Assembly (NCBI GenBank): GCA_012515595.1
Contig: JAAYYA010000410.1
Location: 1 to 36,408, forward strand
Direction: 5' to 3'
Source: Actinomycetales bacterium
GTDB lineage: Bacteria > Actinomycetota > Actinomycetes > Actinomycetales > Dermatophilaceae
Length of the DNA: 36,408 nucleotides
Below the pieces are notes generated by a model. That model had not been told where the DNA came from. It saw nothing but the letters and a program-made list of their open reading frames with translations, and did not search any database. Both the position numbers and the translations under genes were made by a program. Below, piece after piece: positions 16,563 to 36,025 of this stretch (within the stretch, counting starts at the first letter, position 1; each line of letters opens with the position of its first letter).

Positions 16563-16582
16563 GTCTCATTCCTCCACTCTGT

Positions 16583-16654: not shown

Positions 16655-16775
16655 ACCGAGCGCGCCGGGTTGCGCCCCACAGCCCCACCGAGCGCGTCGA
16701 GTTGCGATCCTGATCAGTGCGCCCACCACGCCGTGCGCTCAGTCGCGGAAAATCCCGCAACACGGTGCGCTCGGT
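16655..16775. repeat. 32-bp-period repeat locus 1: two forward units then two inverted units
   Basis: ACCGAGCGC starts at 16655 and 16687 (32 bp apart). GCGCTC(A/G)GT ends at 16743 and 16775 (32 bp apart). Confidence 0.85.
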
Positions 16776-16816
16776 CGGGAGGGGAGGGCGGTCGGGTCAG
16801 GTCAGACGGGGTCGGA

Positions 16817-17407
16817 TCAGACCGGGTCGGGCTCCGCCTCGGCGTGGAGGGCCGCCATCTCCGCCTCCATGACCGTCTCCGCGTCAGCGTCGAGACGCAC
16901 GTGCGCCAGGAGGCTGTGCAGCACCCGGGTGGCGGCAGCGAGCCGCTCGCCCCAGGTCGACAGGTAGCTGAACTGCCACCACCAGAGGGCCTCCTGGCAC
17001 CGGCCGGCCTCGTAGTGGTGCAGCCCGTGGGCCAGGTCAGACGCGACCTGCGTCAGGTCGTCGGAGACCAGCCCCCGCACCACCTCGCCCGAGAGGACCG
17101 GGTCCTCCACCTCGACGTACTCGTCGACGCCGGCGAGCAGGTCGTGCAGGCCGTTGCGGACGCCCTCGAGGTTGGCGTCGGGACCCGTATCGGCCTCGAA
17201 CTGCTCATGGGGCACGACGTCGACCATGGCCCCCAGCCGGGCGCCGGCCGCGTGCAGCTGGGTGCTGGCCAGCAAGAGCAGCGGGAGCGCGGTGTCGGGC
17301 GCCCCGCCGGAGGCCAGCTCCCGGAGCGTGACGAGGTAGGTGCCGGCCTCGCGTGCCGTGTCCTCCGCGAGCTCGGTCAGCTGCCGGTCCATCGACTCAC
17401 CCATCAC
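16817..17407 (-). CDS. DUF5063-like conserved hypothetical protein
   Basis: Acidic protein next to recR; similar in composition and position to the DUF5063 proteins seen near recR in actinobacteria (recognition from memory). Confidence 0.65.
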   Translation of the reverse strand: MMGESMDRQLTELAEDTAREAGTYLVTLRELASGGAPDTALPLLLLASTQLHAAGARLGAMVDVVPHEQFEADTGPDANLEGVRNGLHDLLAGVDEYVEVEDPVLSGEVVRGLVSDDLTQVASDLAHGLHHYEAGRCQEALWWWQFSYLSTWGERLAAATRVLHSLLAHVRLDADAETVMEAEMAALHAEAEPDPV

Positions 17408-17432
17408 GCCTCCCCTGTGCGCTGTCAGCGGG

Positions 17433-18032
17433 TCACGCTTCGATCAGCCTACGCCCTTCGAACGCCCTCCCCAGGGTGACTTCGTCGGCATACTCCAGAT
17501 CCCCGCCCACCGGCAGACCGGATGCGAGGCGGCTGACGCGCAGCCCAAGGGTCACCAGCGTCCGGGCCAGGAAGGCCGCGGTCGCCTCCCCCTCGAGATT
17601 GGGGTCCGTGGCGATGATGACCTCGGTGACCGTGCCGTCGGTCAGGCGGGTCATCAGCTCGCGGATCCGCAGGTCGCCCGGACCGATGCCGTCCATCGGG
17701 CTCAGCGCGCCGCCGAGCACGTGGTAGAGCCCCCGGAACTCGCGGGTGCGCTCGATCGCGACCACGTCCTTGGGCTCCTCGACCACGCAGATCAGGGTCT
17801 GGTCGCGGCGGGGGTCGGCGCAGATGCGGCAGCGCTCGGACTCCGCGACGTTGCCGCACAGCTCGCAGAAGCGCACCTTCTCCTTCACCTCGGTCAGCGC
17901 CGCGACGAGCCGGGTGACGTCGTCGGGGTCGGCCGCCAGCAGGTGGAAGGCGATGCGTTGCGCGCTCTTGGGCCCGATGCCGGGCAGCCGGCCGAGCTCG
18001 TCGATCAGGTCCTGGACCACACCTTCATACAC
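17433..18032 (-). CDS. recR: Recombination mediator protein RecR
   Basis: [32 protein letters not shown]; Cys4 zinc finger ([16 protein letters not shown]); Toprim [12 protein letters not shown]. Confidence 0.98.
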
Positions 18033-18132
18033 AGTGACCTGACTCTAGGCGCTTCGGCTGACAATCACGTCAGGCGCACCCATGGCCGAGCCGGTAACGT
18101 CGGGGGCGGTCGTCCGTGGAATGGGGGTTGCG

Positions 18133-18936
18133 ATGGACCGCACGCACTCAGGCACCGGCACGAGGGTCCAGGGGACGGGAGGAGATCGGAGTCCGCCGCG
18201 CAGGCGCTCCCTGGCGGTCGCCAGTGCCGCGACCCTGGTCCTCCTGACGGCCTGCTCCGGGAGCACCCCGGCAGCCGACCCCTGCCAGGCGCTGCCTGAG
18301 GGTCAGGCCCCCGCCGTGGACACCGAACTGGTGGGACCGTTCACGAGCTTCGTCCGCCACGAGGGCACCCCGGAGGACGACGCGCGGACCGTGGACCTGT
18401 TCGCGTGCGCGGGCACAGAGCGGCCGCCGGCCGAGCTGCGGGCCCTGTATGCCGGGCTGTTCACCGACGCCGTCGCCGGTCAGGACGACGGAAGGTCGGC
18501 CGCCCTGGCCGGGCGGTACATCCTGCTCGTCGAGAGCATCGAGTCCTGGCCGGACGGACTGGACGCCACGACGGTCCTGCATGGCACGGCCGCAGATCTC
18601 CTGGCGGGGGCCGGCGGCCCCAGTGCCGCCGCCCTGGCTGCCGACTCGGGCGAACGGGCCGAGAACGACGTCGACCCGACCGTCGCCGAGGCCATCACAG
18701 ACGTCGTGGCGGACGCCCGACAGCAGCAGCTCCACACCCTGTTCGCCCTGACGTCCTTTCTCGGTGCGACGGAGTCGTCCCGGGCGCGCGAGGTGGTCGC
18801 GGTCATCACGGACGACTACGACGGGGACGTCGGCCACTTCGTGGCGGACGAGTCGCGCGCGGGGGCCGACCACCAGGCCGTCGCTGTGCGTCTGCTGGAG
18901 CTGCGGCAGGTGATCAACTGGGAGGCGACGCCGTGA
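18133..18936 (+). CDS. Putative lipoprotein of unknown function
   Basis: Lipobox LVLLTAC after a basic N-region and hydrophobic stretch. ORF opens at 18082; ATG at 18133 is the likely start. Confidence 0.65.
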   Translation: MDRTHSGTGTRVQGTGGDRSPPRRRSLAVASAATLVLLTACSGSTPAADPCQALPEGQAPAVDTELVGPFTSFVRHEGTPEDDARTVDLFACAGTERPPAELRALYAGLFTDAVAGQDDGRSAALAGRYILLVESIESWPDGLDATTVLHGTAADLLAGAGGPSAAALAADSGERAENDVDPTVAEAITDVVADARQQQLHTLFALTSFLGATESSRAREVVAVITDDYDGDVGHFVADESRAGADHQAVAVRLLELRQVINWEATP

Positions 18937-18959
18937 CACGGGCGTGACGCGTGCCCGGT

Positions 18960-19646
18960 CTAGGTGAGTATGCCGAGCAGGTCACCCGCCGCGTCGGCCA
19001 CGGCCGACGGGCCGGCAGCGGTGAGGTCACCGGGCGTCCCGGCCCCCCAGGTGACTCCCACGGGACGCATCCCGGCGGCCTGCGCGGCGCGGATGTCCAC
19101 GACGGCGTCCCCCACGTAGGCGCAGTCGGACGGCTCGACACCGAGCGTCTCCGCCGCATGCAACAGCGGGTCGGGGTGCGGCTTGTGCCGGGCGGTCGCC
19201 TCCAGGCCGATGACGGCCGCGAAGTCGTGGTCCAGCCGGACTGCGGCCAGCCCGCGGCGCACGGTGTCGCCGAACTTTGAGGAGACGACGGCGAGCCGGG
19301 ACCCGGCGGACAGGAGGCCGTCGAGGACCTCCGGAATGCCGTCGACCGCGCGGATCAGCTCGTCGTGGTGGGCGAGGTTCCAGTCGCGGTAGGTCTCGAC
19401 CATCGCATCGGCCCGACCGGGATAGCGCTCGCGGAAGGTGTCGATGAGCGTGCGGCCGATCCACGAGCGGGCCTCCTGCTCGCTGACGGATTCGCCGAGG
19501 TGGTGGCTGACGGTGTGCTGGAAGGAGGCCACGATCAGCGGGATGGTGTCTGCCAGGGTGCCGTCGAAGTCGAAGAACACCACGGGGTGCCGGGGAGCTG
19601 TCGGGGGCCGGGGCGCAGCGCGCTGTCCCGGGGTCGAGAAGGTCAT
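18960..19646 (-). CDS. HAD family hydrolase (phosphoglycolate phosphatase-like)
   Basis: [17 protein letters not shown] motif [20 protein letters not shown] motif IV. Confidence 0.93.
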
Positions 19647-20320
19647 GCGGTCGGCTGCTCGGGCGTGCGCTCGTTGTAGCGGCCGGCGAGCTCCTGCCCG
19701 GACATCGCGTGGATGGCCGCCATGATCTCGTCGGTGGCCTCACGTCGGGCGCGTCCGGCCGGGACGCCGTCGAACCGGCCGGTGAAGTCGATGGGGGTGC
19801 CGAACTCGACCCGGAACTTGACCACCTTGGGGATGCGCGAGCCCACGGGCTGCAGCTTGTCCGTGCCGGTCAGCGCCACCGGCACGACCGGGCACCCGGC
19901 GGTCAGCGCCAGCCAGGCCACGCCCGTGCGGCCGCGGTAGAGGAGCCCGTCCCGGGAGCGGGTGCCCTCGGGGTAGATCCCGAACGCGCCGCCCTCCCTC
20001 AGGTGCGCCAGCGCGAGGTCCAGCGACAGCTGCGCGGCGCGGGTGTCGTCACGGTCGACGGGGATGGAACCGATGGCGGTGAAGAAGTGCCGGCTGACGA
20101 ACCCCTTGACACCCGTGCCGGTCCAGTAGTCGTCCTTGGCCAGGAACGACACCTGCCGCGGGGAGGTGAGCGGGATGACCAGGCTGTCGGCGAACGACAG
20201 GTGGTTGCTCGCCAGGATCACCGCGCCCTCGGCGGGCACGTTGTCGGCGCCGATCACCTCGGGTCGGTAGATCGCGAACGCGGTCGGTCGGACCACGACG
20301 CGCAGCGCGCGATACAACAT
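19643..20320 (-). CDS. Lysophospholipid acyltransferase (1-acyl-sn-glycerol-3-phosphate acyltransferase-like)
   Basis: [12 protein letters not shown] (NHxxxxD) and [11 protein letters not shown] motifs of PlsC family; 4-bp overlap with the HAD gene. Confidence 0.94.
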
Positions 20321-20347
20321 GTGGCCTCCAGCAGGCGTGCGGACCGG

Positions 20348-22771
20348 TCAGTGGGTCGGGTCGTCCTCGACTGCAATCACGGTACCGCCGAGGACGCTCT
20401 CGATCACCGGCAGTCCCACCGCGCCGGAGCTCTCCAGGTCCTCGTCGTCGTCCCGGGGCACGTCACCGCCGGGCTGGGGTGCCGGAGGCGGGGCAGCCTG
20501 GGGCGTCGGCGTTCGGTCCGGTGCCGCTGCCTGCGGTGGCGTGGCGGTCGGTCCAGTTGACGGCGAGCCTGTATGACGAGGTGCTGGCCTGGGTGGATCC
20601 GTCGGCGTCTCTGCTGGTGCCGGAGTCGCGGCCGACCCCTGACGGGGCCCGGGTGCCGTCCGCTGCTCGTCCTCCGGGCCTGGGCCGCGGCTCGGGCCCG
20701 GCGCGGGGTTGTCTGCCGGCTGGGAGGGCTCAGGGGCATCCGGGGCCGGGTCGGTCGCCCAGGAGGGCGGTGCCTGGCGCGCCGTCTGGGACCACTCCTG
20801 CGCCGGCGGCGCACCCGCCGGCGGCGCTCCGCGACCGGACTGCGCGCCGTAACCCCGGCCACCGGCGGCGCCGAGCTGTTCCGCCGCGCTCGGCTCGTCC
20901 GGCGCCGTCGGGGATGGCGCCGTCGGGGGTGGCACCGCCCGGGCCGGGTCTGGTCCAGGACCAGGCGTGGGCGGCGGTGCACCGGCCGATCCTCCCCGCG
21001 GGCCTCCTCCCCCGGGTGCCACGCCCCCCTCGACGCGGGTGTCCAGACCGATGGCGTCGATGAGGGCCTGGCGCACGACCTCGGCGTGCGCACCCTGGTT
21101 GAAGGTCGAGGCCAGCCCCTCGCTGCTCAGCCCGAGCAGCACCCGGCGTCCGTCGAAGTCCAGGACGGTGCTGTTCACGGAGACCAGGGTCCAGGTGACC
21201 CGCCGGATCTCCTTGATCTTGTCGAGCACCTCTGGCCAGGCGCGGCGCACCGCGTCGGTGTCCAGGGAACCCGGCGCCCCGGTCGGGGGCGGAGCAGGAC
21301 TCGCCTGGGGGGCGGGCCCCGACAAGGCAGGACCCGGCTCCGGGGCGGGACCCCGCTCCGGGGCGGGACCCCGTTCCGGGGCGGCTGGCGCGGAGATCGG
21401 CTCGGAGGCGGCGGGCGCGGGTCGGGCGTGCAACGGTGCGGACGCTGCCGGCTGAGCCTCAGGTGCGGGCCGCTCGACCGGCGCTGCGGACGCGGCGGGG
21501 GCAGGGGCTGGGGGCCGGACCTCCCCGCCGGGCGCAGACTCCGGAACCTCCCGACGGGTCGCGGGCTGCGGCACCTCCCGACGGGCCGCGGCCTCGGGCT
21601 GCTGACCCGGCCCCGCGGCCAGGCGACGCTCGATGCGGTCCAGGCGCGCGGCATACCCCTCCTCGCCCGCGGCAGCGGGCAGCAGGAGACGCGCGCAGAT
21701 CAGCTCCAGGTGCAGGCGGTAGGAGACCGCCCCGGTCATCTCCGACAGCCCCCGGGAGACGACGTCGGCGCACCGGGTCAGGGTGCTCGGGCCGTAGACC
21801 GAGGCCTGCTGGCGCAGCCGCTCGACCTGGTCCTCCGGCATGCCCCGCAGCAGCCCGCCGGCGCGGTCGCCCACAGCGGAGACGACGATGAGGTCGCGGT
21901 AGCGCTCGAGGAGGTCCTCCACGAAGCGGCGCGGGTCGTGACCGGACTCCATGACGCGGTCGACCTGGCGGAAGACCGCGGCGGTGTCCTGGGCGCCGAC
22001 CGCGTCGACGACCGAGTCGAGCAGCTCGACGTCGGTGAAGCCCAGCAGCGCCGCGGCACCGTCGTAGGTCAGGCCACGGTCGTCCGCACCGGAGATCAGC
22101 TGGTCCAGGACCGACAGCGAGTCGCGGACCGAGCCGCCGCCCGCCCGCGTCACGAACGAGAGCACCCCCGGCTCCAGCGTGACGCCCTCGGCCGCGCAGA
22201 GCTCCTCCAGGTAGGAGGTGAGCCGCTGCGGCGGCACCAGGTGGAAGGGGTAGTGGTGGGTCCGCGACCGGATCGTGGAGAGCACCTTGTCGGGCTCGGT
22301 CGTGGCAAAGATGAACTTCACGTGCTCCGGCGGCTCCTCGACCACCTTGAGCAGGGCGTTGAAGCCGTGCGAGGTCACCATGTGCGCCTCGTCGATGATG
22401 TAGACCTTGTAGCGCGACTGGGCCGGGCCGAAGGCGGCCCGCTCGCGCAGGTCGCGGGCGTCGTCCACGCCGCCGTGGCTGGCCGCGTCGATCTCGATCA
22501 CGTCGACCGAGCCGGGACCGCCGCGCGCGAGCGCGACGCACGACTCGCACTCCCCGCACGGGTCCGGCGTGGGGCCCTGCTCGCAGTTGAGGCAGCGGGC
22601 CAGGATCCGCGCGCTGGTGGTCTTGCCGCAGCCCCGGGGGCCGCTGAACAGGTAGGCGTGGTTGACCCGGCCGGAGCGCAGCGCCTGCATCAGGGGATCG
22701 GTGACGTGCTCCTGCCCGATGACGTCGGCGAAGGTCTCGGGCCGGTAGCGGCGGTACAGCGCGGTGCTCAC
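20348..22771 (-). CDS. dnaX: DNA polymerase III subunit gamma/tau
   Basis: GTG start at 22771 (VSTALYRRYRPETFADVIGQEHVTDPL). Walker A SGPRGCGKTTSARILA; CxxC zinc module; long Pro/Ala-rich C-terminus. Confidence 0.97.
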   Translation of the reverse strand: MSTALYRRYRPETFADVIGQEHVTDPLMQALRSGRVNHAYLFSGPRGCGKTTSARILARCLNCEQGPTPDPCGECESCVALARGGPGSVDVIEIDAASHGGVDDARDLRERAAFGPAQSRYKVYIIDEAHMVTSHGFNALLKVVEEPPEHVKFIFATTEPDKVLSTIRSRTHHYPFHLVPPQRLTSYLEELCAAEGVTLEPGVLSFVTRAGGGSVRDSLSVLDQLISGADDRGLTYDGAAALLGFTDVELLDSVVDAVGAQDTAAVFRQVDRVMESGHDPRRFVEDLLERYRDLIVVSAVGDRAGGLLRGMPEDQVERLRQQASVYGPSTLTRCADVVSRGLSEMTGAVSYRLHLELICARLLLPAAAGEEGYAARLDRIERRLAAGPGQQPEAAARREVPQPATRREVPESAPGGEVRPPAPAPAASAAPVERPAPEAQPAASAPLHARPAPAASEPISAPAAPERGPAPERGPAPEPGPALSGPAPQASPAPPPTGAPGSLDTDAVRRAWPEVLDKIKEIRRVTWTLVSVNSTVLDFDGRRVLLGLSSEGLASTFNQGAHAEVVRQALIDAIGLDTRVEGGVAPGGGGPRGGSAGAPPPTPGPGPDPARAVPPPTAPSPTAPDEPSAAEQLGAAGGRGYGAQSGRGAPPAGAPPAQEWSQTARQAPPSWATDPAPDAPEPSQPADNPAPGPSRGPGPEDEQRTAPGPRQGSAATPAPAETPTDPPRPAPRHTGSPSTGPTATPPQAAAPDRTPTPQAAPPPAPQPGGDVPRDDDEDLESSGAVGLPVIESVLGGTVIAVEDDPTH

Positions 22772-22829
22772 GGGGAAGACCCTAGCCGCCGCCCCCGACG
22801 GCCACCGACCCTCGCCCACAGCCTGTGGA

Positions 22830-25079
22830 TCAGCCCACCTGCAGCACGGTCATCCGGTGCGCGGCCCGGGTCAGCACGACATACAGCACCCGGGGTCCGC
22901 CCGGTGACTCCTCGATGATCTCGTCCGGGTCGACCACCACCGTGGCGTCCCACTCCAGCCCCTTGGAGGACAGCGGGTCGATGAGCACCACCCGGCCGTC
23001 GTAGCGGCTCGTCACCCCGGTCAGGTCCGCCCACCAGCGCTGCGGCGCGATCACCGCGAGGGACCCGCCGATCTCGTCGGCCAGCTCCGCGACGGCCCGC
23101 TCGACCGCCGCGGACACCGCCGCACCGTCCGCGGGCACGGACAGCTCTACCGGCTCGACGCCGGTCTCCCGGACCGCCTGCGGGATGTCCGCGTCGGGGA
23201 CGTGCTGGCGGATCAGGCGCTCGGCATACTCGAAGATCTCCCGGGCGTTGCGGTAGTTGGTGTCCATGTGGAACCCGCGGCGCACCGAGCTGCCGAAGGC
23301 CTCCTCGCGGGCGGTGAGCGACTCCTCCGGGTCCGGCCAGGAGCTCTGCGCGGCGTCGCCGACCACGGTCCACGAGGCGAAGCGCCCGCGGCGCCCGAGC
23401 ATCCGCCACTGCATCGGGGACAGGTCCTGGGCCTCGTCGACGAGCACGTGGGCGTACTCGTCCGCGGCGGTCACCCGGCCGCTCATGAGCCGCTCACGGG
23501 GGTCGCTGGAGACCCGGGTCCCGGCCCCGCCGACCGACTCGCCCGGCGCCCCGGGGATGTCGCCGTCCACGCCGACGCGCAGGGCGGACATGCCGTATTG
23601 CGAGGCGTCGTCCAGCTCCTCGATCTCGTAGAAGCCGCGCTCCTCCGAGGGCAGGTCGACCATCGGGCCGAGGCGGGCGGCCAGCTCGTCGACCAGGGCC
23701 ACGTCGGCCACCGACCACGTGCCCGTCTCGAGGGCTGTCTGCAGGGAGTCGGACAGTATGCCGGCAGCCGCCTCTCCCAGGACACCGCCGGCGAGCCGGC
23801 GGGCCAGGTCGGGGTCGGCGAGCCAGAGCAGGACCTCCCGGGGGTCGACCGGGCGCCACCACTCGCGCAGGAAGGCCTCGACGTCGCCGGAGTCCGCGAA
23901 CTTGTCGAGGAACTGCTCCCGGTCGCCCTCCCGCACCTGCGCCCAGGCGGCCTCGGCGAGCTCCCGCTGCGCGACGTCGTAGGAGTTGTTGCGCTGGTGG
24001 TGCCGCAGCACCGCGCGGCGCACCCGCTCCAGAGCGGGCTTCTCCAACCGGACCGCGTGGCCGGCGACGAAGGACCGGAACAGGTTCGGCGACCCCGGGA
24101 TCGGCTCCCGCACCAGGGCGTTCAGCACCTGCCGGACCCGCAGGCTGCCCTTGAGCGCGGCCGCCTCGGGCGGGTCCATCCGGGTGGCGGTGATGCCGCC
24201 GACCAGGTCCCCGACCGAGCGCAGGACGACCGAGTCCTCGCCCAGCCCGGGCAGCACCCGCTCGATATAGGCGGTGTAGGCCGCAGAGGGCCCCACGACG
24301 AGCACCCCGCCGGACTCGAACTTACGTCGGTCGGAGTAGAGCAGGTAGGCGGCACGGTGCAACGCCACCACCGTCTTGCCGGTCCCGGGTCCCCCGGTGA
24401 TCTCGGTGACTCCGCGGGCGGCCGCGCGGATCGCCTCGTCCTGGTGTTGCTGGATGGTGGCCACGATGTCCCGCATCCGCTGACCGCGGGTGCGGGTCAG
24501 GGCCGCGAGGAGCGCACCGTCGCCGACCACCACGAGGTCGTCCGGCGGCTCGGCGACCATGAGGTCGTCCTCCACCCCGACGACCAACTCGCCCTGGCAG
24601 CGCAGCACCCGGCGCCGCAGCACGCCCTGGGGGTCCACCGGGGTGGCGCGGTAGAACGCGGAGGCCGCGGGCGCGCGCCAGTCGATGACCAGCGGCTCGT
24701 AGTCGTCGTCCCGCACGCCGAGCCGACCGATGTAGCGGACCTCCCGGCCCGAGGGGTGCCCGTCGTCCGCGTGGTCCAGGTCGAGCCGGCCGAAGACCAG
24801 CCCCTCGTGCTGGTTCTGCAGGGAGGCGGTGCGCCGCGAGGCCGAGAAGACCAGCGCGTCGCGCTCGAAGAGCCCGGCCAGCTCCTCCTCGCGGGGGTCG
24901 CCGGTGCCCCGGCGGTCGGTCTGTCCCCGAGCCATGCCCTCCGCGTGCACGAGCTGTGCCCGGTCCACGGCCTTGGCCAGCTCGGTGTACACCCGGTCGA
25001 CGTGCGCCTGCTCGATGGCAATCTCACGTGCGACGAGGTCCTCGGCGGCTTCGCTCACCTTCGGTTCCATCCCCTCCAC
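22830..25079 (-). CDS. UvrD/Rep-like superfamily 1 helicase of the HelD type (RNA polymerase recycling/HelR-like)
   Basis: MEGMEPKVSEAAEDLVAREIAIEQAHVDRVYTEL N-terminal coiled coil; EITGGPGTGKTVVALHRAAYLLY; DEAQDLSPMQWRML; VVVLTRA-type C-terminus. Confidence 0.88.
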   Translation of the reverse strand: MEGMEPKVSEAAEDLVAREIAIEQAHVDRVYTELAKAVDRAQLVHAEGMARGQTDRRGTGDPREEELAGLFERDALVFSASRRTASLQNQHEGLVFGRLDLDHADDGHPSGREVRYIGRLGVRDDDYEPLVIDWRAPAASAFYRATPVDPQGVLRRRVLRCQGELVVGVEDDLMVAEPPDDLVVVGDGALLAALTRTRGQRMRDIVATIQQHQDEAIRAAARGVTEITGGPGTGKTVVALHRAAYLLYSDRRKFESGGVLVVGPSAAYTAYIERVLPGLGEDSVVLRSVGDLVGGITATRMDPPEAAALKGSLRVRQVLNALVREPIPGSPNLFRSFVAGHAVRLEKPALERVRRAVLRHHQRNNSYDVAQRELAEAAWAQVREGDREQFLDKFADSGDVEAFLREWWRPVDPREVLLWLADPDLARRLAGGVLGEAAAGILSDSLQTALETGTWSVADVALVDELAARLGPMVDLPSEERGFYEIEELDDASQYGMSALRVGVDGDIPGAPGESVGGAGTRVSSDPRERLMSGRVTAADEYAHVLVDEAQDLSPMQWRMLGRRGRFASWTVVGDAAQSSWPDPEESLTAREEAFGSSVRRGFHMDTNYRNAREIFEYAERLIRQHVPDADIPQAVRETGVEPVELSVPADGAAVSAAVERAVAELADEIGGSLAVIAPQRWWADLTGVTSRYDGRVVLIDPLSSKGLEWDATVVVDPDEIIEESPGGPRVLYVVLTRAAHRMTVLQVG

Positions 25080-25219
25080 CCGACGGCCGGGTCACGGTCG
25101 TTGGTCCGTCAACGGGTCGGACTAGCCTACCCGCCCGGGTGCCGGATCACGGCCCCGCCACCTGCGGACCGGCGGTGGCCACCCGGACCCTGGCCCACGT
25201 CATACGGCGCCGGCGCCTC

Positions 25220-26215
25220 TCAGATCCACTCGCGGCGCGTCGCCTGCACACCGGCCTGGAAACGGGTGGCGGCCCCGAGGGTGTTCATCAGGACCGATAC
25301 CCGACGCTCCACGGTGCGGGTCGAGACGTTCAGGCTGCGCGCGATCTGCTGGTCCGTCGCGCCGGTCGCGAGCAGTCCCAGGATCCGGCGGTCCCGTTCG
25401 ACCAGGGGCGGCTGGTCGGACCCGCCGGTGAGCCGCGCGAGGGTGGGCGCCATGGGGGTGGACAGCTCGAAGGCCACCTCGAACAGCGCCTCGACCGCGG
25501 CGATCGGAGCCCGTCGTCGCACGACGAACGACCCGTCAGCCCGGGCGTCGTGACGCGACAGGTCGATCAGGGCCGCCCGGTCGTCCACGATCAGCCCGCT
25601 GAACGGGAGCCCGTCGGCCACCGCGATCCGCTGCCCTGCCGCGGCGCCCGCCTCGAGCGCAGCCAGCACACCGTCGTGCGCGAACAACCTGACGTCCACC
25701 ACGAGACCGACCTCCGACGGCCGCAGGCTCGCCCGGGAGAACAGGCCTCCCTCCTCCAGCACGAGGCGCCGGGAGACGGGCGAGTCGTCCAGGAAGGCTC
25801 GGAGTCGCTGGTCCGCCGTGGCCGCCATGGAGTAGGCGGCGAGCACCACCAGATCTACCGACCGGAGCATCTCCACCCCGACGAATCCCGGCGGCTCAGG
25901 CTCGTCCCGGGCCTTGCGCCACAACGCGCCGAGCTCCGTGGCGGTGTTGCGGGTTGACCGGGCCCGGGTCTCCAGCGCGGTGGCCAGCCTGGGGAGCGCC
26001 ACCTCGGGCGGGACGATGTCCCACACGCCGGGTCCGGCGTCGCTGATCAGCTGTCGCGCCGCCAGGAAGGCCGCGGCCCGGTCGACGTCCTCGGGGTGGT
26101 GCCCCGCCTCGACCAGGGCCTCCCGGGTCGGTCGACCGAGTCGCAGCATCGTGAGGTAGAGCGCCGACAGGAACTCCTCGAACTGGGGATCGGTGAGTTC
26201 GTCGAGCCGAGCCAT
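25220..26215 (-). CDS. LuxR-type HTH transcriptional regulator with TrmB-like N-terminal half
   Basis: C-terminal RDRRILGLLATGATDQQIARSLNVSTRTVERRVSVLMNTLGAATRFQAG. ORF opens at 26284; start placed at 26215 because a -10-like TATAGT (26255-26260) lies inside the longer ORF. Confidence 0.82.
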   Translation of the reverse strand: MARLDELTDPQFEEFLSALYLTMLRLGRPTREALVEAGHHPEDVDRAAAFLAARQLISDAGPGVWDIVPPEVALPRLATALETRARSTRNTATELGALWRKARDEPEPPGFVGVEMLRSVDLVVLAAYSMAATADQRLRAFLDDSPVSRRLVLEEGGLFSRASLRPSEVGLVVDVRLFAHDGVLAALEAGAAAGQRIAVADGLPFSGLIVDDRAALIDLSRHDARADGSFVVRRRAPIAAVEALFEVAFELSTPMAPTLARLTGGSDQPPLVERDRRILGLLATGATDQQIARSLNVSTRTVERRVSVLMNTLGAATRFQAGVQATRREWI

Positions 26216-26254
26216 CTGTCCGCCTGTCATCGCGATGTCGGATTGCCGCCATTG

Positions 26255-26288
26255 ACTATAAACCGACATCTGTGGGCGTGACATCTGT
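26255..26288 (-). promoter_or_regulatory. Putative promoter/operator of the LuxR-type regulator (TATAGT -10 and GACATCTGT direct repeats)
   Basis: TATAGT on the minus strand at 26255-26260; GACATCTGT at 26265-26273 and 26280-26288 (15-bp start-to-start). Confidence 0.4.
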
Positions 26289-26339
26289 CAGCGGACGTGT
26301 CACAGTGGTCGAACCGGCTTAGCCGGCGTGGGGATCGTG

Positions 26340-26445: not shown

Positions 26446-26485
26446 CTCTGGAGCACGACGCCCCGCCCACCTGGCTCGACCCCAG

Positions 26486-26640
26486 TGGCTCGCGGGTCAA
26501 TGGGGCGCACTCTGACCACCCCCAGCCTCCCCACGAGAAGGCTGCCCGACTCACCTAAGTCGGCCCCGGTGGCTCGCGGGTCAACCCAGCGCACTCTGAC
26601 CACCCCCAGCCTCCCCACGAGAAGGCTGCCCGCTCCACCT
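26486..26640. repeat. Tandem direct repeat, two ~71-bp copies at 84-bp period
   Basis: TGGCTCGCGGGTCAA....GCGCACTCTGACCACCCCCAGCCTCCCCACGAGAAGGCTGCCCG at 26486 and 26570. Confidence 0.9.
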
Positions 26641-26712
26641 GCCGGCACCAGTCCCGCCTCGGGCCCGGGACCCGGCACCCCTCGGGCGCCCTTCCTGGCT
26701 TAGTGTCGTCTC

Positions 26713-28047
26713 GTGAGGGTTCTCGTCATAGGCTCCGGCGCGCGCGAGCACGCCATCGTCCGCGCGCTGGCCGCCGACCCGACCGTCGACGCCGTGCTCG
26801 CCGCGCCGGGCAACCCCGGCATCGACCTCATCGCGCAGTGCCTGCCCGACGCCGGCCCGGTCACCGACCCCGCCGCCATGTCGGCGCTGGCCGAGGAGGT
26901 AGGGGCCGACCTCGTCGTCGTCGGGCCCGAGGCGCCCCTGGTTGCCGGCGTCGCGGACGCGATCCGGGCCCGGGGCATCGCCTGCTTCGGCCCCAGCGGG
27001 GCCGCCGCCGCGCTGGAGGGCAGCAAGGCCTTCGCCAAGGAGGTCATGGCCGCCGCCGGTGTGCCAACCGCCCTCGCCCACGTCTGCGAGACGGAGGACG
27101 AGCTCGTCACGGCGCTCGACGCCACGGGCGCCCCGTATGTCGTCAAGGACGACGGCCTGGCCGCGGGCAAGGGTGTCGTGGTCACCGACGACCGCGACGA
27201 GGCGCTGGCCCACGGACTGGCCTGCCTGGCCAAGGGGGACGGACGGGTGGTGGTCGAGGAGTTCCTCGACGGCCCCGAGATCTCGGTGTTCTGCCTCAGC
27301 GACGGCACCGAGGTGCGGGCGCTGGTCCCGGCCCAGGACTTCAAGCGCATCGGGGACGGCGACACCGGCCCGAACACCGGCGGGATGGGGGCCTACAGCC
27401 CTCTGCCGTGGGCGCCGGACGACCTCGTGGAGCAGGTCCTCGACCGGGTCGCGCGCCCCACGATCGCCGAGATGCACCGCCGGGGCACCCCGTTCACCGG
27501 CGTCCTCTACGTCGGGCTCGCCCTCACCTCCCGCGGGCTGCGGGTGGTGGAGTTCAACGCCCGCTTCGGCGACCCCGAGACGCAGGTCGTGCTGGCCCGG
27601 CTGCGCACCCCGCTGGGGCAGCTGCTGGACGCCGCCGCCCACGGGCGACTGGCCGAGCAGCCCGAGCTGAGCTGGCACGACGACGCGGCCGTGGCCGTCG
27701 TCCTCGCCTGCCAGGGCTATCCGGCGGCGCCAGTGATCGGCGCCGCGATCGCCGGGCTCGAGGAGTGTGGCGCCCTGGAGCACGTGCAGGTCCTGCACGC
27801 CGGCACCAGGGACACCCCGGAGGGAGTGATCGCCTCCGGCGGTCGCGTCCTGTCGGTGGTCGGCACCGGCGACGACCTGGCCCAGGCCCGGGCCCGGGCC
27901 TACGCCGGGGTGCACGCGATCCACTGCGAGGGCTCCCAGTTCCGCGGTGACATCGCCCGCGCCGCCGAGCAGGGCGACATCCGCATCCCCGTGCCCATCG
28001 AGCTCGGGCCGACCGAGCTCGGTCCCGACGGGAAGGTCCTGGCGTGA
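26713..28047 (+). CDS. purD: Phosphoribosylamine--glycine ligase
   Basis: GTG start; VLVIGSGAREHAIVRALA...APGNPGI; GNTGGMGAY-type motif PNTGGMGAYSPLP; ATP-grasp. Confidence 0.98.
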   Translation: MRVLVIGSGAREHAIVRALAADPTVDAVLAAPGNPGIDLIAQCLPDAGPVTDPAAMSALAEEVGADLVVVGPEAPLVAGVADAIRARGIACFGPSGAAAALEGSKAFAKEVMAAAGVPTALAHVCETEDELVTALDATGAPYVVKDDGLAAGKGVVVTDDRDEALAHGLACLAKGDGRVVVEEFLDGPEISVFCLSDGTEVRALVPAQDFKRIGDGDTGPNTGGMGAYSPLPWAPDDLVEQVLDRVARPTIAEMHRRGTPFTGVLYVGLALTSRGLRVVEFNARFGDPETQVVLARLRTPLGQLLDAAAHGRLAEQPELSWHDDAAVAVVLACQGYPAAPVIGAAIAGLEECGALEHVQVLHAGTRDTPEGVIASGGRVLSVVGTGDDLAQARARAYAGVHAIHCEGSQFRGDIARAAEQGDIRIPVPIELGPTELGPDGKVLA

Positions 28048-29039
28048 CCGAGACCGCGGGGCTCCCGGGCGAGCTGCCCGGCTACATGCCGGTCTACTCC
28101 GGCAAGGTCCGCGAGCTGTTCGCACCGATCGACCCCGAGACCGGCCTGGTCGACGAGTCCCGCCTGCTGCTCGTCGCCTCCGACCGCATCTCGGCCTTCG
28201 ACCACGTCATCGACAGCCCGATCCCCGACAAGGGTGCGGTGCTGACCCAGCTGTCGCTGTGGTGGTTCGACCAGCTGGCCGACCTGATCCCCCACCACGT
28301 CCTCGACACCGCCGTGCCCCGTCGGGTCGCCGGGCGCGCCCTCACCGTGCGCCGCCTGCGGATGCTGCCCGTCGAGTGCATCGCCCGGGCCTACCTCACC
28401 GGCGGTGGCCTCACCGAGTACCGCGCCACCGGCGCCGTCTCCGGGGTCGCCCTCCCCGCGGGCCTGGAGGACGGGTCGCTCCTGCCCGAGCCGATCTTCA
28501 CGCCCACCACGAAGGCTCCCGCCGGCCAGCACGACGAGCCGATGACCTTCGAGGATGTCGAGGACGAGCTGGGCACCGCCCTGGCGACGCGCGTGCGGGA
28601 CCTGACCCTCGGCATACTGGCCCGCGGCAACGAGATCGCCGCGGACCGGGGCATCCTGATCGCCGACACCAAGGTGGAGTATGGCGTGGACCCGGTCTCC
28701 CTCGGCCTCACCTCCGTGGACGAGGAGATCGACTGGACGACGGTGGATCCCGACCGCGTGCAGGTCGTCCTCGCCGACGAGGTGCTCACCCCCGACAGCA
28801 GCCGGTTCTGGCGGGCCTCGGAGTGGGCTCCCGGCCGGGCGCAGACCTCCTACGACAAGCAGGTGCTGCGCGACTGGCTGCTCTCCGAGGCGAGCGGCTG
28901 GGACCGCGCCTCCGGGCAGGCGCCGCCGCCGCTGCCGCAGGACGTGATCGAGCTGACCCGGGCCCGCTACGTCGAGGCCTACGAGACCCTGACCGGGCAG
29001 GAGTTCGTGCCGACCTCCCCGCCCGACACCCCCGCCTGA
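28044..29039 (+). CDS. purC: Phosphoribosylaminoimidazolesuccinocarboxamide synthase
   Basis: [41 protein letters not shown]; overlaps purD by 4 bp. Confidence 0.97.
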
Positions 29040-29073
29040 CACCACCTGCCCCGCCCCGAGGAGACCGACGTCC

Positions 29074-32000
29074 ATGGCCCCGCACGACTACGTGTTGACC
29101 TCCGTGCCCGGGGGCTCGGCCCTCTCCGACTTCCGCGCCGCGGCCCTGCTGCGCCGGCTCCAGGCGGTCGCGCCGAAGGTCACCGGGGTCGGCGCCCGGT
29201 TCGAGCACTGGGTGGCGACCGACGCGCCCCTCGACGAGGCGGCCCACGGCCGGCTCGTGGCGCTGCTGACCTATGGCGAACCGGCGGTGGACGAGCCCGG
29301 TGACGACGAGGTCGGGGACGCGATGACCATCGTCATCGGGCCGCGCCTAGGGACCATCTCGCCGTGGGCCAGCAAGGCCACCGACATCCTGCGCAACTGC
29401 GGGCTGGACGTGCACCGGGTCGAGCGGGTCGTCGCCTACACCCTGCAGCTGGACGGGCCGGGTGGCCTGAGCCCCGAGGAGCGGGACGCCTGCGCCGCGC
29501 TGCTGCACGACCGGATGACCGAGTCGGTGCTGCCGGCCGGCGAGCGCCTCGACGTCCTGTTCGCCGAGCGGGACGCCGAGCCGATGGAACACGTCGACGT
29601 GCTCGGCCGGGGCCGCGAGGCCCTGGTCGAGGCCGACGCGACCTGGGGGCTTGCGCTGGCCGAGGACGAGATCGACTACCTGGTGGAGGCGTTCACCGGC
29701 CTCGGCCGCAACCCCACCGACGTCGAGCTGACGATGTTCGCCCAGGCCAACTCCGAGCACTGCCGGCACAAGATCTTCAACGCCGACTTCGTGATCGACG
29801 GCGACGCCCAGCCGCGGAGCCTGTTCGGGATGATCCGGCACACCGAGGAGGTCGCCGGTCACGGGACGGTCGTGGCCTACAAGGACAACGCCTCGGTGAT
29901 GGCGGGCGGCCCCGTGACCCGGTGGCTGCCCGAGAGCGGGGCCAACGGACCCAGCCGCTACGTGGCCCGCGAGGAGGACACGCACGTCCTCATGAAGGTC
30001 GAGACGCACAACCACCCGACCGCCATCTCCCCCTTCGCCGGTGCCGCGACCGGCGCCGGCGGCGAGATCCGGGACGAGGGCGCCACCGGGCGCGGGTCGG
30101 CCCCGAAAGCCGGGCTGACCGGCTTCGTCGTCTCCAACCTGCACCTGCCCGGGACCGACGAGCCGTGGGAGGCCGACCCCTACGGCGCCCCGGACCACCT
30201 GGCCAGCCCGCTGGACATCATGATCGAGGGCCCGATCGGGGCGGCCGCGTTCAACAACGAGTTCGGCCGGCCGGCGCTCGGCGGGTTCTTCCGCGTCTAC
30301 GAGCAGACGGTCGACGGGGTGCGCCGCGGCTACCACAAGCCGATCATGAGCGCTGGCGGCCTCGGCCAGATCAGCGCCGAGCAGACCGAGAAGGTCCGCT
30401 TCCCCGGCGGCACCCTCCTCGTGCAGATCGGCGGCCCGGGCATGCGGATCGGCATGGGCGGCGGCGCGGCCAGCTCGATGGCCTCCGGCGCCAACGCCGC
30501 CGAGCTCGACTTCGACTCCGTCCAGCGCGGGAACCCCGAGATGGAGCGGCGGGCCCAGGAGGTCATCAACCACTGCGCGGCGCTCGGCGCCGACAACCCG
30601 ATCCTGGCGATCCACGACGTGGGTGCCGGCGGGCTGAGCAACGCCTTCCCCGAGCTGGTCGACGACGCCGGGCTCGGCGCCCGGTTCGACCTCTCCTCGG
30701 TGCCGCTGGAGGAGTCCGGCCTGGCCCCCAAGGAGATCTGGTCCAACGAGAGCCAGGAGCGCTACGTCCTGGCGATCGCGCCCGAGTCGCTAGACGCGTT
30801 CGCCGCGCTCTGCGAGCGCGAGCGGTGCCCGTATGCCGTGGTGGGCGTCGCCGTGGACGACGGCCAGCTGACCCTGGGCGAGGAGGGCGACGGCGGCGAT
30901 CCCGATCCTGCGTCCCGGGCCGTGGACATGCCCATGGAGGTGCTCCTCGGCAAGCCCCCCAGGATGACCCGCGACGCTCAGCGCGTCACCTGGTCGGCTC
31001 CTGACCTGGACCGTGCGGGACTGGACGACCCTGCGGAACTGGCGCGCACGGCATACGACGTCCTGCGGCACCCCACCGTGGCGTCCAAGCGGTTCCTGAT
31101 CACCATCGGTGACCGGACCGTCGGCGGCCTGAGCCATCGGGACCAGATGGTCGGCCCGTGGCAGGTGCCGGTGGCCGACGTGGCCGTCACCCTCTCGGAC
31201 CTGGTCGGGCTCGCGGGGCAGGCGATGGCCAGCGGCGAGCGGACCCCGCTGGCGGCGGTCGACGGGCCGGCGTCCGGGCGGATGGCCGTCGGTGAGGCGC
31301 TGACCAACCTGCTGGCCGCGCCGGTGACGCTCGGCGGCGTGAAGCTGTCCTGCAACTGGATGGCCTCGGCCGGCACCCGCGGCGAGGACGCCGCGCTGTA
31401 TGACACGGTCCACGCCGTGGCGATGGAGCTGTGCCCGGCGCTGGGCATCTCGGTGCCGGTCGGCAAGGACTCGATGTCGATGCGCACCACCTGGACGGAC
31501 GAGGAGGGCACGGCGCGGGCGGTGATCTCGCCGGTGTCGCTGGTGGTCTCGGCCTTCGCGTCGCTGCCGGACGTGACCGGGACCCTGACGCCGCAGCTGC
31601 TGCCCGACTCGGCGCTGCTGCTGGTCGACCTGGGCGCCGGGCGCAACCGGCTCGGCGGGTCGATGCTGGCCCAGGTGCGGGGCGAGTTCGGCGGGACGGT
31701 GCCCGACCTGGACGACCCGCAGCGGCTGGTGGCCCTGGCCGACGCACTGACGGAACTGCGCGCGCGGGGGCTTGTCACGGCATACCACGACCGGTCCGAC
31801 GGAGGGTTGTGGGCGACGGTGTGCGAGATGGCCTTCGCGGGGGCCGTGGGCGTGGATGTCGAGGTGCCCGGCGAGGACGGTGTGGGGGCCCTCTTCGCCG
31901 AGGAGCTGGGTGCCGTCCTGGGCGTCCCGGCTGACCGGGTCGGGGAGGCCGAGGCGGTGCTCGCCGAGCACGGGCTGGGCGACCTGACCCACGTGCTGGG

Positions 32001-33006
32001 GCGGGCCACGGACGCGCGGCGGGTGCGCGTGCGCGGTGCGGGCGTGGAGCTGGACGAGCCGGTGCGCGACCTGGCGCAGGCGTGGGACGAGGTCTCCTGG
32101 CGGATCAGCGCGCTGCGGGACAACCCGGAGTGCGCCGACGAGGAGCACGCGGGCGTGGGCGCCGACGAGGACCCGGGGCTGCACCTGGAGACCACCTTCG
32201 ACCCGGCCGAGGACGTCACCGCGCCCTACCTGAACTTGGGGGCGCGGCCGGCGGTGGCGATCCTGCGGGAGCAGGGGGTCAACTCCCACGTCGAGACCGC
32301 CTTCGCCTTCGACCGGGCCGGGTTCGACGCCTATGACGTGCACATGACCGACCTGCAGTCCGGTCGCTTCGCGCTGTCCGACGTGGTGGGTCTGGTGGCG
32401 TGCGGCGGCTTCTCCTACGGCGACACGCTGGGGGCCGGTGAGGGCTGGGCGCGGTCGGTGCTCTTCAACGAGCGGCTCACCGAGGAGTTCGGGGCCTTCT
32501 TCGCGCGGCCGGACACCTTCGGGCTGGGCATCTGCAACGGCTGCCAGATGTTCGCGGCGCTGGCCGAGCTGATCCCCGGTGCCGAGGCGTGGCCCCGGTT
32601 CACCCGCAACCGCAGCGAGCAGTATGAGGCGCGGCTGAGTCTCGTGGAGGTCCTGGAGTCGCCCTCGGTCTTCTTCACCGGGATGGCCAGCTCGCGGATC
32701 CCGATCGCGGTGGCGCACGGCGAGGGCCGTGCCAACTTCTCCGCCCAGGGGGACGAGGCGTCGGTGCTCGCCGCGGCCCGGTATGTCGACAACCACGGTC
32801 GTCCGACCGAGCTCTACCCGGCCAACCCCAACGGGTCCCGCGGCGGCCTCACCGCTGTCACCACCCCCGATGGGCGGTTCACCGCGATGATGCCGCACCC
32901 CGAGCGGGTGCAGCGCAACGCCCAGCTGTCGTGGACCCCTGGCCCGATCGGCGAGGCAAGCCCATGGCTGCGGATGTTCCGCAACGCCCGCGTCTGGGTG
33001 GAATGA
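29074..33006 (+). CDS. purL: Phosphoribosylformylglycinamidine synthase, single-chain (large) form
   Basis: 1310 aa: N-terminal PurS-like region, [18 protein letters not shown], two AIRS-like halves, C-terminal class I glutaminase ([27 protein letters not shown]). Confidence 0.97.
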
Positions 33007-33019
33007 TTCTCGAGGACTG

Positions 33020-33309
33020 ACCGAGCGCGCGGTGTTGCGAGATTTCACCCCACCGAGCGCGCGGGGCGTTGCTCCTACACCCCACCGAGCGCATCGTGTT
33101 GCGGCTCTGGACCTCACCGAGCGCCCGGCGTTGCGGTTGGACTGAGCCGATGTCGTTGGCCCCAGGAAGGTGCGGATCAACCCAGGAAGCGTTCTTGGGT
33201 CGACCCGCACGTTCCTGGGTCAATGCGCGCGCGATGCGCTCGGTCGGGGTTGGGGGCCGCAACACGATGCGCTCGGTCGCCCCCAGGGCCGCAACACCGT
33301 GCGCTCGGT
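33020..33309. repeat. 32-bp-period repeat locus 2: four forward units, 59-bp palindrome, one partial and two full inverted units
   Basis: Forward ACCGAGCGC starts at 33020, 33052, 33084, 33116 (exact 32-bp steps). Inverted units end at 33244, 33277, 33309. Confidence 0.9.
33161..33219. repeat. Imperfect 59-bp palindrome (28-bp arms, 3-bp loop)
   Basis: CCCAGGAAGGTGCGGATCAACCCAGGAA-GCG-TTCTTGGGTCGACCCGCACGTTCCTGGG; 24 of 28 positions complementary. Confidence 0.9.
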
Positions 33310-33324
33310 CGAGGGGGGTGGGGG

Positions 33325-33762
33325 CTACGTGGCGCCAGCGTCGGCCCACTCGTCGAGTGCGGCCTGGATCTCCTCGTCGGTCTTGGTGAGCTCGGTGCCG
33401 GCGATCCACTGGTGCCCGAAGGGATCGCGGATCCGGCCCTGGCGCGCGCCGTAGGGCTGGTCGTCCACCGGGAAGACCACCTCGGCGCCACGCTCGACCG
33501 CCACTGCCACGACCGCGTCGGGGTCGTCGCACTGGATGTCCATCACCACGCCCACGCCACCGTCACCGGGGCTGCGGTCGACGTCATCGGGATCCTTGAG
33601 CTGCAGCACGTCGCCGCTCGGCAGCTCCAGCTGGGCGAAGACGACGGAGTCGCCCATCGCGTAGCGGCTGACCAGGGTCGCCCCCAGCACCTGGCTGTAG
33701 AACTCGATGGCGCGGTCGGCGCCGTCGACGACGAGCTTGGGTCGCACCCGCATCTGTCCCAT
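33325..33762 (-). CDS. VOC (glyoxalase/bleomycin resistance) family protein
   Basis: MRVRPKLVVDGADRAIEFYSQVLGATLVSRY...DPFGHQW, VOC fold motifs. Confidence 0.93.
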   Translation of the reverse strand: MGQMRVRPKLVVDGADRAIEFYSQVLGATLVSRYAMGDSVVFAQLELPSGDVLQLKDPDDVDRSPGDGGVGVVMDIQCDDPDAVVAVAVERGAEVVFPVDDQPYGARQGRIRDPFGHQWIAGTELTKTDEEIQAALDEWADAGAT

Positions 33763-33923
33763 CCACCCACGCTAACCAGGCCGCTCCCGCGCAGCATCCG
33801 GGACGGACGGCGTGCCTGTCGGACCGGATGGACCCCGGTGGATCTTCGGGGCCTGCTGCATCTTGTGCGGGGTCAGGGGCGGTGCGACGATTAAACGTTG
33901 GGCATTCGCAGGACCAGGCACCC

Positions 33924-35855
33924 GTGACACAGACCGCCGCAACTCCGGAAGCCGGCCGCCAAGCCGTCGGGCTTGGCCACTGGAAGGATGCCTACGGCCT
34001 GTTCCAGGCCGTCGACGCCGACACTCTCACCGGGGATGACCTGGCAGCCTACGCCGAGTCTGCCTTCTGGACCTGTCGCCAGGACGAGGCGATGGCGTTG
34101 CGCGAGCGGGCGTTTGCCGCCTACATCTCGGAGGGCAAACCCCTGCTCGCCGCCACCGTCGCTTCCTGGCTGTCCTGGGACCACTCGGGCCGCGGCGCCT
34201 TCGCCGTGGCCAGCGGATGGCTCGCCCGCGCGGACCGGTTGTTGGCTCCCCTCCCCGAGTCCGCGGAGCACGCACTGGTGGCGCTCAACCACACCATGCA
34301 GTCGATGGAGTCAGGCGACAGCGCGAACGCCCAGTCGAGTCTCGATCGCGCCCTCGACATCGCCGAACGCCTCGGCGTCACCGAGGTCCTCTCGCTCGGG
34401 AGGACGATCCGGGGGCGGATGCTCATCCACAGCGGCCAGGTCGACGCGGGCCTGGCGATGCTCGACGAGTCGGCCGCCGAGGCACTGAGCGGGGAGCTGG
34501 CTCCCCTCTCGGCCGGACTCATCTATTGCATGACCATCCAGGCCTGCCAGGAGGTGGGCGACTTCCGGCGGGCCGCCGAGTGGACGGACGTGGCAAACCG
34601 CTTCTGCGACCGGCTGGACGTGAGCGGATTCCCGGGCGCGTGCCGCATCCACCGCGCCCAAGCGCTGCGGCTGACCGGCAACTGGTCAGCCGCCGAGGAG
34701 CAGGCGATCACCGCGTGTGCGGAGCTGCGCGAGTTCAACTACTGGGCAACCGGCGACGGGCTCTACGAGGTGGCTGAGATCCGGCGCGTCCGCGGGGACT
34801 TCGCCGCCGCACTGGAGACCTACCGTGAGGTGCACGAGCTCGGCCGCGACCCGCAACCCGGGCTCGCGCTGCTCCGGCTCGCCGAGGGCAAGGTGGACGC
34901 AGCCGGCACCGCCGTGCGCCGCTCCCTGGATGCCACGCCCGAGCCGCTCAGGCGGCTGCAGCTGCTGCCCGCCCAGGTCCAGATCGCGATCGCCGCCGGC
35001 GACCTGCGCACCGCCCGGGCCGCCCGGGACGAGATCGAGGCGACGGTCACGTCATACCTGATCGCCCACCAGGTCGCCCCGGCCTTCGAGGCGACCCTGG
35101 CCATGGCGACGGCCCGGATCGCCCTCGCGGACGCGGACTGGCCGCAGGCCGTGCAGCAACTTCGCCTGGCCCGTGATCGCTGGCTCCGGGTCGGGGCGCC
35201 GTATGACGTGGCGCAGGCGCGCCTGTACCTGGGCATGGCCTACCGCCGGCAGGGCGACGAGGAGGGGGCGACCGCCGAGCTCGAGTCCGCCCAGGCCACC
35301 TTCGAACGGCTGGGAGCGCGCCTGGACGAGGAGCACGCCAGGGAGCTGCTGGGCCGGCTGGAGAAGCGGCGCACCTTCCTCTTCACCGACATCGTGGGCT
35401 CCACCCAGCTGCTGGAGAGCCTCGGTGACGACAAGTGGAGCAAGCTGCTCGCTCGCCACGACGAGCTGGTGCGGGGCCGGATCGCCGAGGGGGGCGGGGA
35501 GGTCATCAAGCACACCGGCGACGGGTTCTTCGCCGCCTTCGAGCAGCCGGGGGCGGCGGTCCAGGCCGCGATCGCGATCCAGCGGGCCCTCGACGGCGAG
35601 GTCGTCGCCCCCGACGTGCGGATCGGGATCCACACCGGCGGGGCCTTCCACACCGACCAGGACCAGTCCGACTACGGCGGCCTGGGCGTGCACGTGGCCG
35701 CGCGGGTCGGCGCGGCGGCCGGGGCGGGCGAGATCCTGGTCAGCAGCGAGTCGCTGGAGGGGGCGCAAGGCGCCTTCGCGCTCTCCGAGCCGCGCGAGGT
35801 CGCCCTCAAGGGGGTGGCCGACGCGGTGTCGATCGTGTCGGTCGACTGGCGCTGA
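33924..35855 (+). CDS. TPR-type protein with C-terminal class III adenylate/guanylate cyclase domain
   Basis: Start placed at GTG 33924 (ORF opens 33828). TPR-like helical repeats; RRTFLFTDIVGSTQLLESLGDDKW...GEVIKHTGDGFFAAFEQPGAAVQAAIAIQRAL...RIGIHTGGAF is a class III cyclase signature. Confidence 0.88.
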   Translation: MTQTAATPEAGRQAVGLGHWKDAYGLFQAVDADTLTGDDLAAYAESAFWTCRQDEAMALRERAFAAYISEGKPLLAATVASWLSWDHSGRGAFAVASGWLARADRLLAPLPESAEHALVALNHTMQSMESGDSANAQSSLDRALDIAERLGVTEVLSLGRTIRGRMLIHSGQVDAGLAMLDESAAEALSGELAPLSAGLIYCMTIQACQEVGDFRRAAEWTDVANRFCDRLDVSGFPGACRIHRAQALRLTGNWSAAEEQAITACAELREFNYWATGDGLYEVAEIRRVRGDFAAALETYREVHELGRDPQPGLALLRLAEGKVDAAGTAVRRSLDATPEPLRRLQLLPAQVQIAIAAGDLRTARAARDEIEATVTSYLIAHQVAPAFEATLAMATARIALADADWPQAVQQLRLARDRWLRVGAPYDVAQARLYLGMAYRRQGDEEGATAELESAQATFERLGARLDEEHARELLGRLEKRRTFLFTDIVGSTQLLESLGDDKWSKLLARHDELVRGRIAEGGGEVIKHTGDGFFAAFEQPGAAVQAAIAIQRALDGEVVAPDVRIGIHTGGAFHTDQDQSDYGGLGVHVAARVGAAAGAGEILVSSESLEGAQGAFALSEPREVALKGVADAVSIVSVDWR

Positions 35856-35861
35856 TCGGCG

Positions 35862-36009
35862 GTCGACGCGGTGCGCTCGGTGGGGTGGATCTTCGCAACC
35901 CCGTGCGCTCGGTGGGCTGGATTCTCGCAACCCCGTGCGCTCGGTGGGCTGGATTCTCGCAACCCCGTGCGCTCGGTAGGGTGGATTTTCGCAACCCCGT
36001 GCGCTCGGT
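35862..36009 (-). repeat. 32-bp-period repeat locus 3: five same-orientation units
   Basis: GCGCTCGGT ends at 35881, 35913, 35945, 35977, 36009 (exact 32-bp steps); unit CGCAACCCCGTGCGCTCGGT + GGGCTGGATTCT. Confidence 0.95.
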
Positions 36010-36025
36010 CGATTGGGGGGAGTTG

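Follow-up and report, generated by a model that had tools for sequence, protein, structure and literature searches.

A dispersed tandem-repeat family with a 32-bp step behind stop codons in an actinobacterial genus

Three intergenic loci in a 36,408-nucleotide stretch of Actinomycetales DNA (assembly GCA_012515595.1, contig JAAYYA010000410.1, positions 1 to 36,408; in the following, the window) carry the same short unit in tandem, at a spacing of 32 bp. The initial annotation, made from the sequence alone, had recognised no named element in them and suggested cooperative protein binding or a structural or terminator role. This raises the question of what kind of element these repeats are and what, if anything, keeps their spacing fixed. 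We describe them with high confidence as a genus-restricted, dispersed tandem-repeat family of STAR-like type, located behind stop codons, and discuss whether their units may serve as docking sites for a protein.

Anatomy and distribution of the repeat unit

At all three window loci, a 20-bp unit (ACCGRGCGCRYSGKGTTGCG) is followed by a 12-bp linker. The pattern ACCGAGCGCNNNGNGTTGCG, with up to three mismatches, matched 17 times in the window compared with 1.7 ± 1.2 times in dinucleotide shuffles, none of 100 shuffles reaching 17; all three loci were present as annotated. The unit is also not confined to them, as the host assembly (568 contigs, 3.97 Mb) contains 392 copies at up to two mismatches, i.e., many more than the 14 found with a reversed-pattern control. 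Contigs ended at repeats in 7 of 92 cases compared with 3.8 expected, a weak excess.

We analyzed the anatomy of the unit in about 60 stretches, about 0.6 Mb of contigs, mostly picked for having matches. Genes were called by a codon model trained on these stretches (88% coding), and all starts and stops are hence our own calls. A looser unit pattern yielded 302 units in 108 runs, 86 of which held at least two units; arrays range from 2 to more than 10 units. Positions 1–9 (ACCGRGCGC) and G13 are nearly invariant, positions 10–12 are R, Y and S with every combination occurring, and positions 14–20 mostly read KGTTGCG, with TGGCG, TGGTG and CGTCG as frequent variants. The full ACCGnGCGCnCGGT was found in only 39 of 256 units. 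Unit and linker as initially annotated recur, but the conserved part is just the 5′ 9–13 bp. We describe this head box by the consensus (CCCS)ACCGRGCGC, followed by RYSG in the host lineage and then by a tail that varies with lineage or locus. A dyad in the unit is best centred on GCGC, with 65% complementary positions. The linker is loosely C-rich and has CC or CG at its end, ahead of the next box. Within an array, the first unit comes closest to the canonical form and the last one has decayed furthest, and adjacent units have the same RYS triplet more often than expected (0.43 versus 0.15).

Of 32 same-genus genomes, 18 had the tandem pair ACCGRGCGC-N23-ACCGRGCGC, for which the control was practically zero; there were 323 pairs in the host's own genome, 197 in genome G010, 126 in G021 and 97 in G011. 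The remaining 14 of the 32 are array-free, with match numbers close to those of other genera even when three mismatches are allowed. Nearly all of 396 genomes of the order had 0–2 chance-like matches. Within the order, and apart from chance-level matches, the family is essentially restricted to one genus, through which it extends well beyond the three loci first noted. In the GTDB r220 collection, the unit occurred as an exact tandem pair in one named record, Ornithinimicrobium murale, which makes the host probably an Ornithinimicrobium or a close relative. The first 9 bp and the period are common to the lineages, and the remainder of the unit is lineage- or locus-specific: CGCRRATGGTYGCC in G011, G012 and G029, RYSGTGACCCGAGAT in G008 and G021, GTGRGCRCC and others in G010. 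A genome from another family of the order, G333, holds units with a 33-bp step that begin with ACCGAGCGC, end with GGTCGAGTAGCG and finish in a GGTCGAGTAGCGACCGAGCGCAGCGAGG...TATCGAGACC palindrome (L122:6170-6520 and L123:6170-6230). They may be a distant relative of the family or the source of its head box.

Register, placement and turnover of the arrays

Steps between neighbouring units (n = 209) measured 32 bp in 186 cases and 33 bp in 17, the rest being 31, 34 or 39 bp, so deviating steps are nearly all +1. The step was exactly 32 bp in 60 of 68 cases where neighbouring linkers were at least 90% identical, and likewise in 25 of 28 where they were less than 50% identical. A period inherited by duplication alone should loosen with linker divergence. 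We observed no such loosening and conclude that the 32-bp register is probably constrained. The sites thereby have the fixed helical phasing, three turns, of a protein-binding site array. The longest array seen, G010:C1:904993-905397 (12 tandem pairs among those listed), advances in 33-bp steps, and its unit variants alternate in a higher-order repeat.

As RNA, neither strand of the arrays exceeded dinucleotide shuffles in fold stability (z −0.28 and −0.41), and the unit had no covariation beyond neighbouring columns and none at long range, which led us to reject a reading as RNA hairpins. We also rejected a long hairpin between plus and minus arrays, as arrays of the same locus were no more alike than random ones (mean 0.766 versus 0.766; best pair 0.893 versus 0.864 ± 0.017). 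Rfam 15 had no match in the window above gathering score. Since array RNA is unstructured and the register does not depend on linker divergence, we favour a model in which double-stranded DNA would be recognised, with the sites facing one side of the helix.

Convergent gaps are enriched in arrays, and divergent gaps are largely spared. Among gaps of at least 150 bp, they occupied 22 of 37 convergent, 25 of 84 co-directional and 5 of 46 divergent gaps (Fisher p = 4e-6 for convergent versus divergent). Within 25 nt of a stop codon, 43 arrays were oriented head-first and 11 tail-first (p = 1e-5). This anchoring in the sense orientation, which the initial annotation had not described, has its mode at 10–19 nt between stop and head. 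The leader in between is 60% C compared with 43% at array-less ends. Two further species, G010 and G011, repeated the head-near-stop pattern. One array, L075:2588-2718, falls within a predicted coding region, at its 3′ end, and this region overlaps the start of the next gene; arrays may thus enter coding ends.

Hairpins in the first 110 nt of array-less convergent ends were 6.2 kcal/mol more stable than shuffled sequence. At array-bearing convergent ends, the first 110 nt had no such excess (−0.3), and the 110 nt beyond the array reached −5.7 kcal/mol relative to shuffles. The array hence sits between the stop codon and a terminator-like hairpin and is no replacement for it.

On the whole chromosome of G011, the direction of 32 of 43 arrays is towards the inferred origin of replication (p = 0.002). 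In G010, 26 of 33 arrays of an A-type subset did so, and the full list, over the first 1.8 Mb that it covers, was near even (about 19 to 14); G010 is ambiguous in this respect. As we placed origin and terminus by coarse GC skew, replication polarity stays a lead.

Linkers are more alike within arrays (identity 0.69) than between them (0.46), the last linker reaching 0.50, and we conclude that arrays were amplified locally in tandem. At orthologous ends of the purL, DUF5063 and SDR (short-chain dehydrogenase/reductase) genes, the own genome, G010 and G021 carry arrays of differing sequence. Behind purL there are four sense units in the host genome, four in G021 and three in G010, all with different tails, decayed remnants in G006 and G020, and nothing recognisable in other genomes. 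The DUF5063 gene end carries a 5-unit array in G021. Within the 36 kb of synteny, the window also has arrays at two gene ends that bear them in G010 and at both that do so in G021. At the end of the glyoxalase-like gene, G020 retains a unit with nearly the window's linker (GCCCTGGGGG), which points to vertical inheritance. These comparisons show arrays to be old in some positions yet fast in turnover.

Possible roles of the arrays

Starting from what is observed directly, i.e., the abundance, register, position and orientation of the arrays, their local amplification and turnover, their retention at some orthologous ends and their lack of RNA structure, we propose, with slightly less than even confidence, that the unit is a phased DNA–protein docking site at gene 3′ ends. 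The head box with its dyad centre GCGC would be the DNA site for a putative, probably dimeric protein, and a row of such sites on one face of the helix would let this protein bind cooperatively. The bound array might then label a transcription unit's 3′ boundary or insulate it, and concerted evolution would keep the sites alike within a genome. Of the roles suggested initially, the rigid 32(+1)-bp step speaks for phased cooperative binding of a protein. A role as terminator or structural RNA is not supported, given the lack of a fold beyond shuffles and the hairpins found beyond the arrays.

Several points weigh against a docking site. The analysis identified no protein that binds the unit. 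To copy a 32-bp period, tandem duplication would suffice by itself, though it would not hold the period through linker divergence, and the anatomy statistics stem from the selected stretches described above. In co-directional gaps overall, sense and antisense arrays were about equally frequent (17 versus 15), i.e., the polarity rule applies to arrays abutting a stop. Positional conservation rests on few gene ends, and the same ends host unrelated repeats in other species. As 14 of 32 same-genus genomes lack arrays, any function must be dispensable. Moreover, plus and minus arrays of one locus showed no sign of coevolution.

The arrays could instead be a selfish or neutral minisatellite, seeded by mobility or gene conversion, multiplied by slippage and surviving mainly behind stop codons as the least harmful place, with no host function. 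We consider this a real possibility, if a somewhat doubtful one. It would fit the rapid turnover, in which a gap with an array in one species has a decayed one or none in neighbouring species, as well as the proliferation at species level that leaves 14 genomes array-free. It would also account for the avoidance of divergent, i.e., promoter, gaps and for the other, unrelated tandem repeats in the same 3′ gaps of G008, G015 and G006. Against a minisatellite stand the step that holds at 32 bp after linker divergence and the 9-bp head that is constant across lineages differing in most of the remainder. The head-first orientation at a narrow 10–19 nt from stops likewise argues against it, as does the lack of a RAYT (REP-associated tyrosine transposase) and of plasmid or phage copies.

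Some repetitive extragenic palindromic (REP) elements of Escherichia coli are considered to act at the RNA level behind the stop codon. Sense orientation behind a stop, upstream of a terminator-like hairpin, means that the array is probably transcribed, and it could accordingly act in the 3′ untranslated region, unstructured and bound by an RNA-binding protein, or affect ribosome release or mRNA decay. We regard this as quite improbable, as the arrays lack secondary structure, RNA binding does not demand a three-turn spacing, and antisense arrays are also common in co-directional gaps. Still less probable are transcription terminators, either intrinsic or as a polar protein roadblock. Position at gene ends, polarity and the strong enrichment in convergent gaps would agree with termination, and some gaps are wholly filled by an array, with little room for another hairpin. 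Against this, the arrays contain no stable hairpin as expected of an intrinsic terminator, and hairpins are kept beyond the array where room remains.

A REP/BIME-type element moved by a RAYT, or the end of a transposon or miniature inverted-repeat transposable element (MITE), is scarcely credible: intergenic location, convergent gaps and inverted array pairs around a hairpin are reminiscent of such elements, but Y1_Tnp was absent from 39 genomes in which positive controls were detected, the unit is no palindromic REP-type hairpin (array fold z −0.28), and the interiors of wide plus/minus pairs appear to be ordinary chromosomal genes. Among the latter are uppP and ndk, as we presume from reading the protein sequences. 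A check for target-site duplications gave no clean empty site, intergenic DNA being too divergent between species. We found no plasmid match and no convincing viral match; the sole match to a viral contig, L344, is apparently a coincidence within coding sequence. A CRISPR array was rejected because the linkers are just 12 bp long and recurrent, compared with unique spacers of about 30 bp; cas genes were not searched. We found no link to a transposon and no named element to which the unit could be assigned, and the open-access literature searched yielded no description of the family, in agreement with the initial annotation, which had recognised no named element.

Extending the docking-site proposal, a genus-specific DNA-binding protein, coevolving with its sites, might coat gene 3′ ends in polar arrays with three-turn phasing, which would act as fences between transcription units and, if the orientation bias of G011 holds, respect replication direction. 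This would be a bacterial boundary element of an undescribed kind. We think this rather unlikely as a whole.

The window loci and related repeat families

Locus 1 is flanked by two co-directional minus-strand genes. Its plus array (16655–16706) has two units at 16655–16674 and 16687–16706 with a 32-bp step, 92 bp upstream of the minus-strand gene 15630–16562. The minus array (16724–16775) consists of a canonical unit (16756–16775) and a degraded one with three mismatches (16724–16743), behind the stop of the DUF5063 gene (16817–17404, minus strand). Two GAGAGCRSTGCTCT-type inverted repeats lie at 16567–16640, between locus 1 and gene 15630–16562, which encodes an NAD(P)-binding protein; they are kept in G006, G008 and G020 and resemble a regulator's operator.

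Loci 2 and 3 lie between convergent genes, as initially annotated. Locus 2 separates the purL-type formylglycinamidine ribonucleotide (FGAM) synthase gene (29074–33006, plus strand), whose 3′ end carries arrays here, in G010 and in G021, from the glyoxalase-like gene (33325–33753, minus strand). A leader (33007–33019, plus strand), where most other arrays have C-rich CCCCNCCCG, runs from the purL stop to the plus array (33020–33135) with units at 33020, 33052 (altered tail), 33084 and 33116. The minus array (33225–33309), behind the stop of the glyoxalase-like gene, has boxes at 33236–33244, 33269–33277 and 33301–33309; the single 33-bp step reported for this locus is that between 33236 and 33269. 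Its leader (33310–33324, minus strand) runs from that stop to the first minus unit and is C-rich in the sense of the gene. Between both arrays is a strong central palindrome (33161–33220), a terminator-like hairpin from either side; the 122-nt centre of the locus folds at −65.8 kcal/mol. A long palindrome, about TTTTGGTCGCGCRGAAGACGTCG...CGACGTCTTCCGYGCGACCAA, recurs between or beyond arrays (L032:3509-3611, L057:226-512, L053 near 5240, L068 near 5540) and is probably a second, hairpin-type intergenic family of the host genome.

Locus 3 is bordered by a cyclase-like gene and a partial SDR gene that runs off the window (36026–36406, minus strand). The 3′ end of the SDR gene is array-bearing in G010 as well. 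From the SDR stop, a C-rich leader (36010–36025, minus strand) leads to the minus array (35862–36009), i.e., four units with identical cores at 35990, 35958, 35926 and 35894 and a degraded innermost one at 35862, in exact 32-bp steps with near-identical linkers. Where a species lacks an array, the gap contains other repeats, tandem or palindromic. At the 3′ ends orthologous to gene 36026–36406 in G008 and G015, and behind purL in G008 (L146), these are GGCTGGACCACTCAGTGATCGC repeats and a repeated CTCGTGAGTGGCATCAGC...GCCACTCACGAG palindrome in G008 and TGCCCCACCAGAGGGGGCAGAGTAG-type repeats in G015.

REP elements and BIMEs are intergenic, located at 3′ ends and in convergent gaps, and present in hundreds of copies, as are the repeats described here, which differ in having direct rather than alternating repeats, no palindromic hairpin unit and no RAYT. 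Mycobacterial MIRU/VNTR loci are likewise actinobacterial intergenic tandem repeats, but they have longer units at few loci and no common 9-bp head in three-turn register. BrickBuilt of Porphyromonas gingivalis is a MITE with terminal inverted repeats that contains 23-bp units without spacers, in about 19 copies (PMC4596501). Like the present family, it is a minisatellite located between genes, with short units in tandem and copies spread over one genome; we saw no frame of this kind around the arrays. The closest kind is the STAR element of staphylococci, a 14-bp core repeated in tandem at many intergenic loci, with dispersal route and function unknown (PMC3532100). Both families have a short conserved core in tandem at many intergenic loci, locus-specific linkers with a divergent last linker, local expansion and contraction, and an uneven spread between species. 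The STAR core, T(G/A/T)TGTTG(G/T)GGCCC(C/A) (PMC3532100), is a different sequence from the unit consensus, and the hosts are unrelated. STAR spacers are about 40 bp or more, whereas the step here is strictly 32 bp; the present arrays are also anchored in sense behind stop codons, and their unit includes a tail specific to the lineage.

STAR-type families have had no known function or mover. In the present family, the rigid three-turn register, the constant 9-bp head, the polarity towards the stop and the existence of near relatives with and without arrays make function testable. If a protein binds, the arrays would act as boundaries or organisers where bacterial genes end; if none does, they would be a bacterial minisatellite in which concerted evolution can be seen cleanly. 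The family further provides hundreds of loci that may vary in length and could serve to type strains of the genus.

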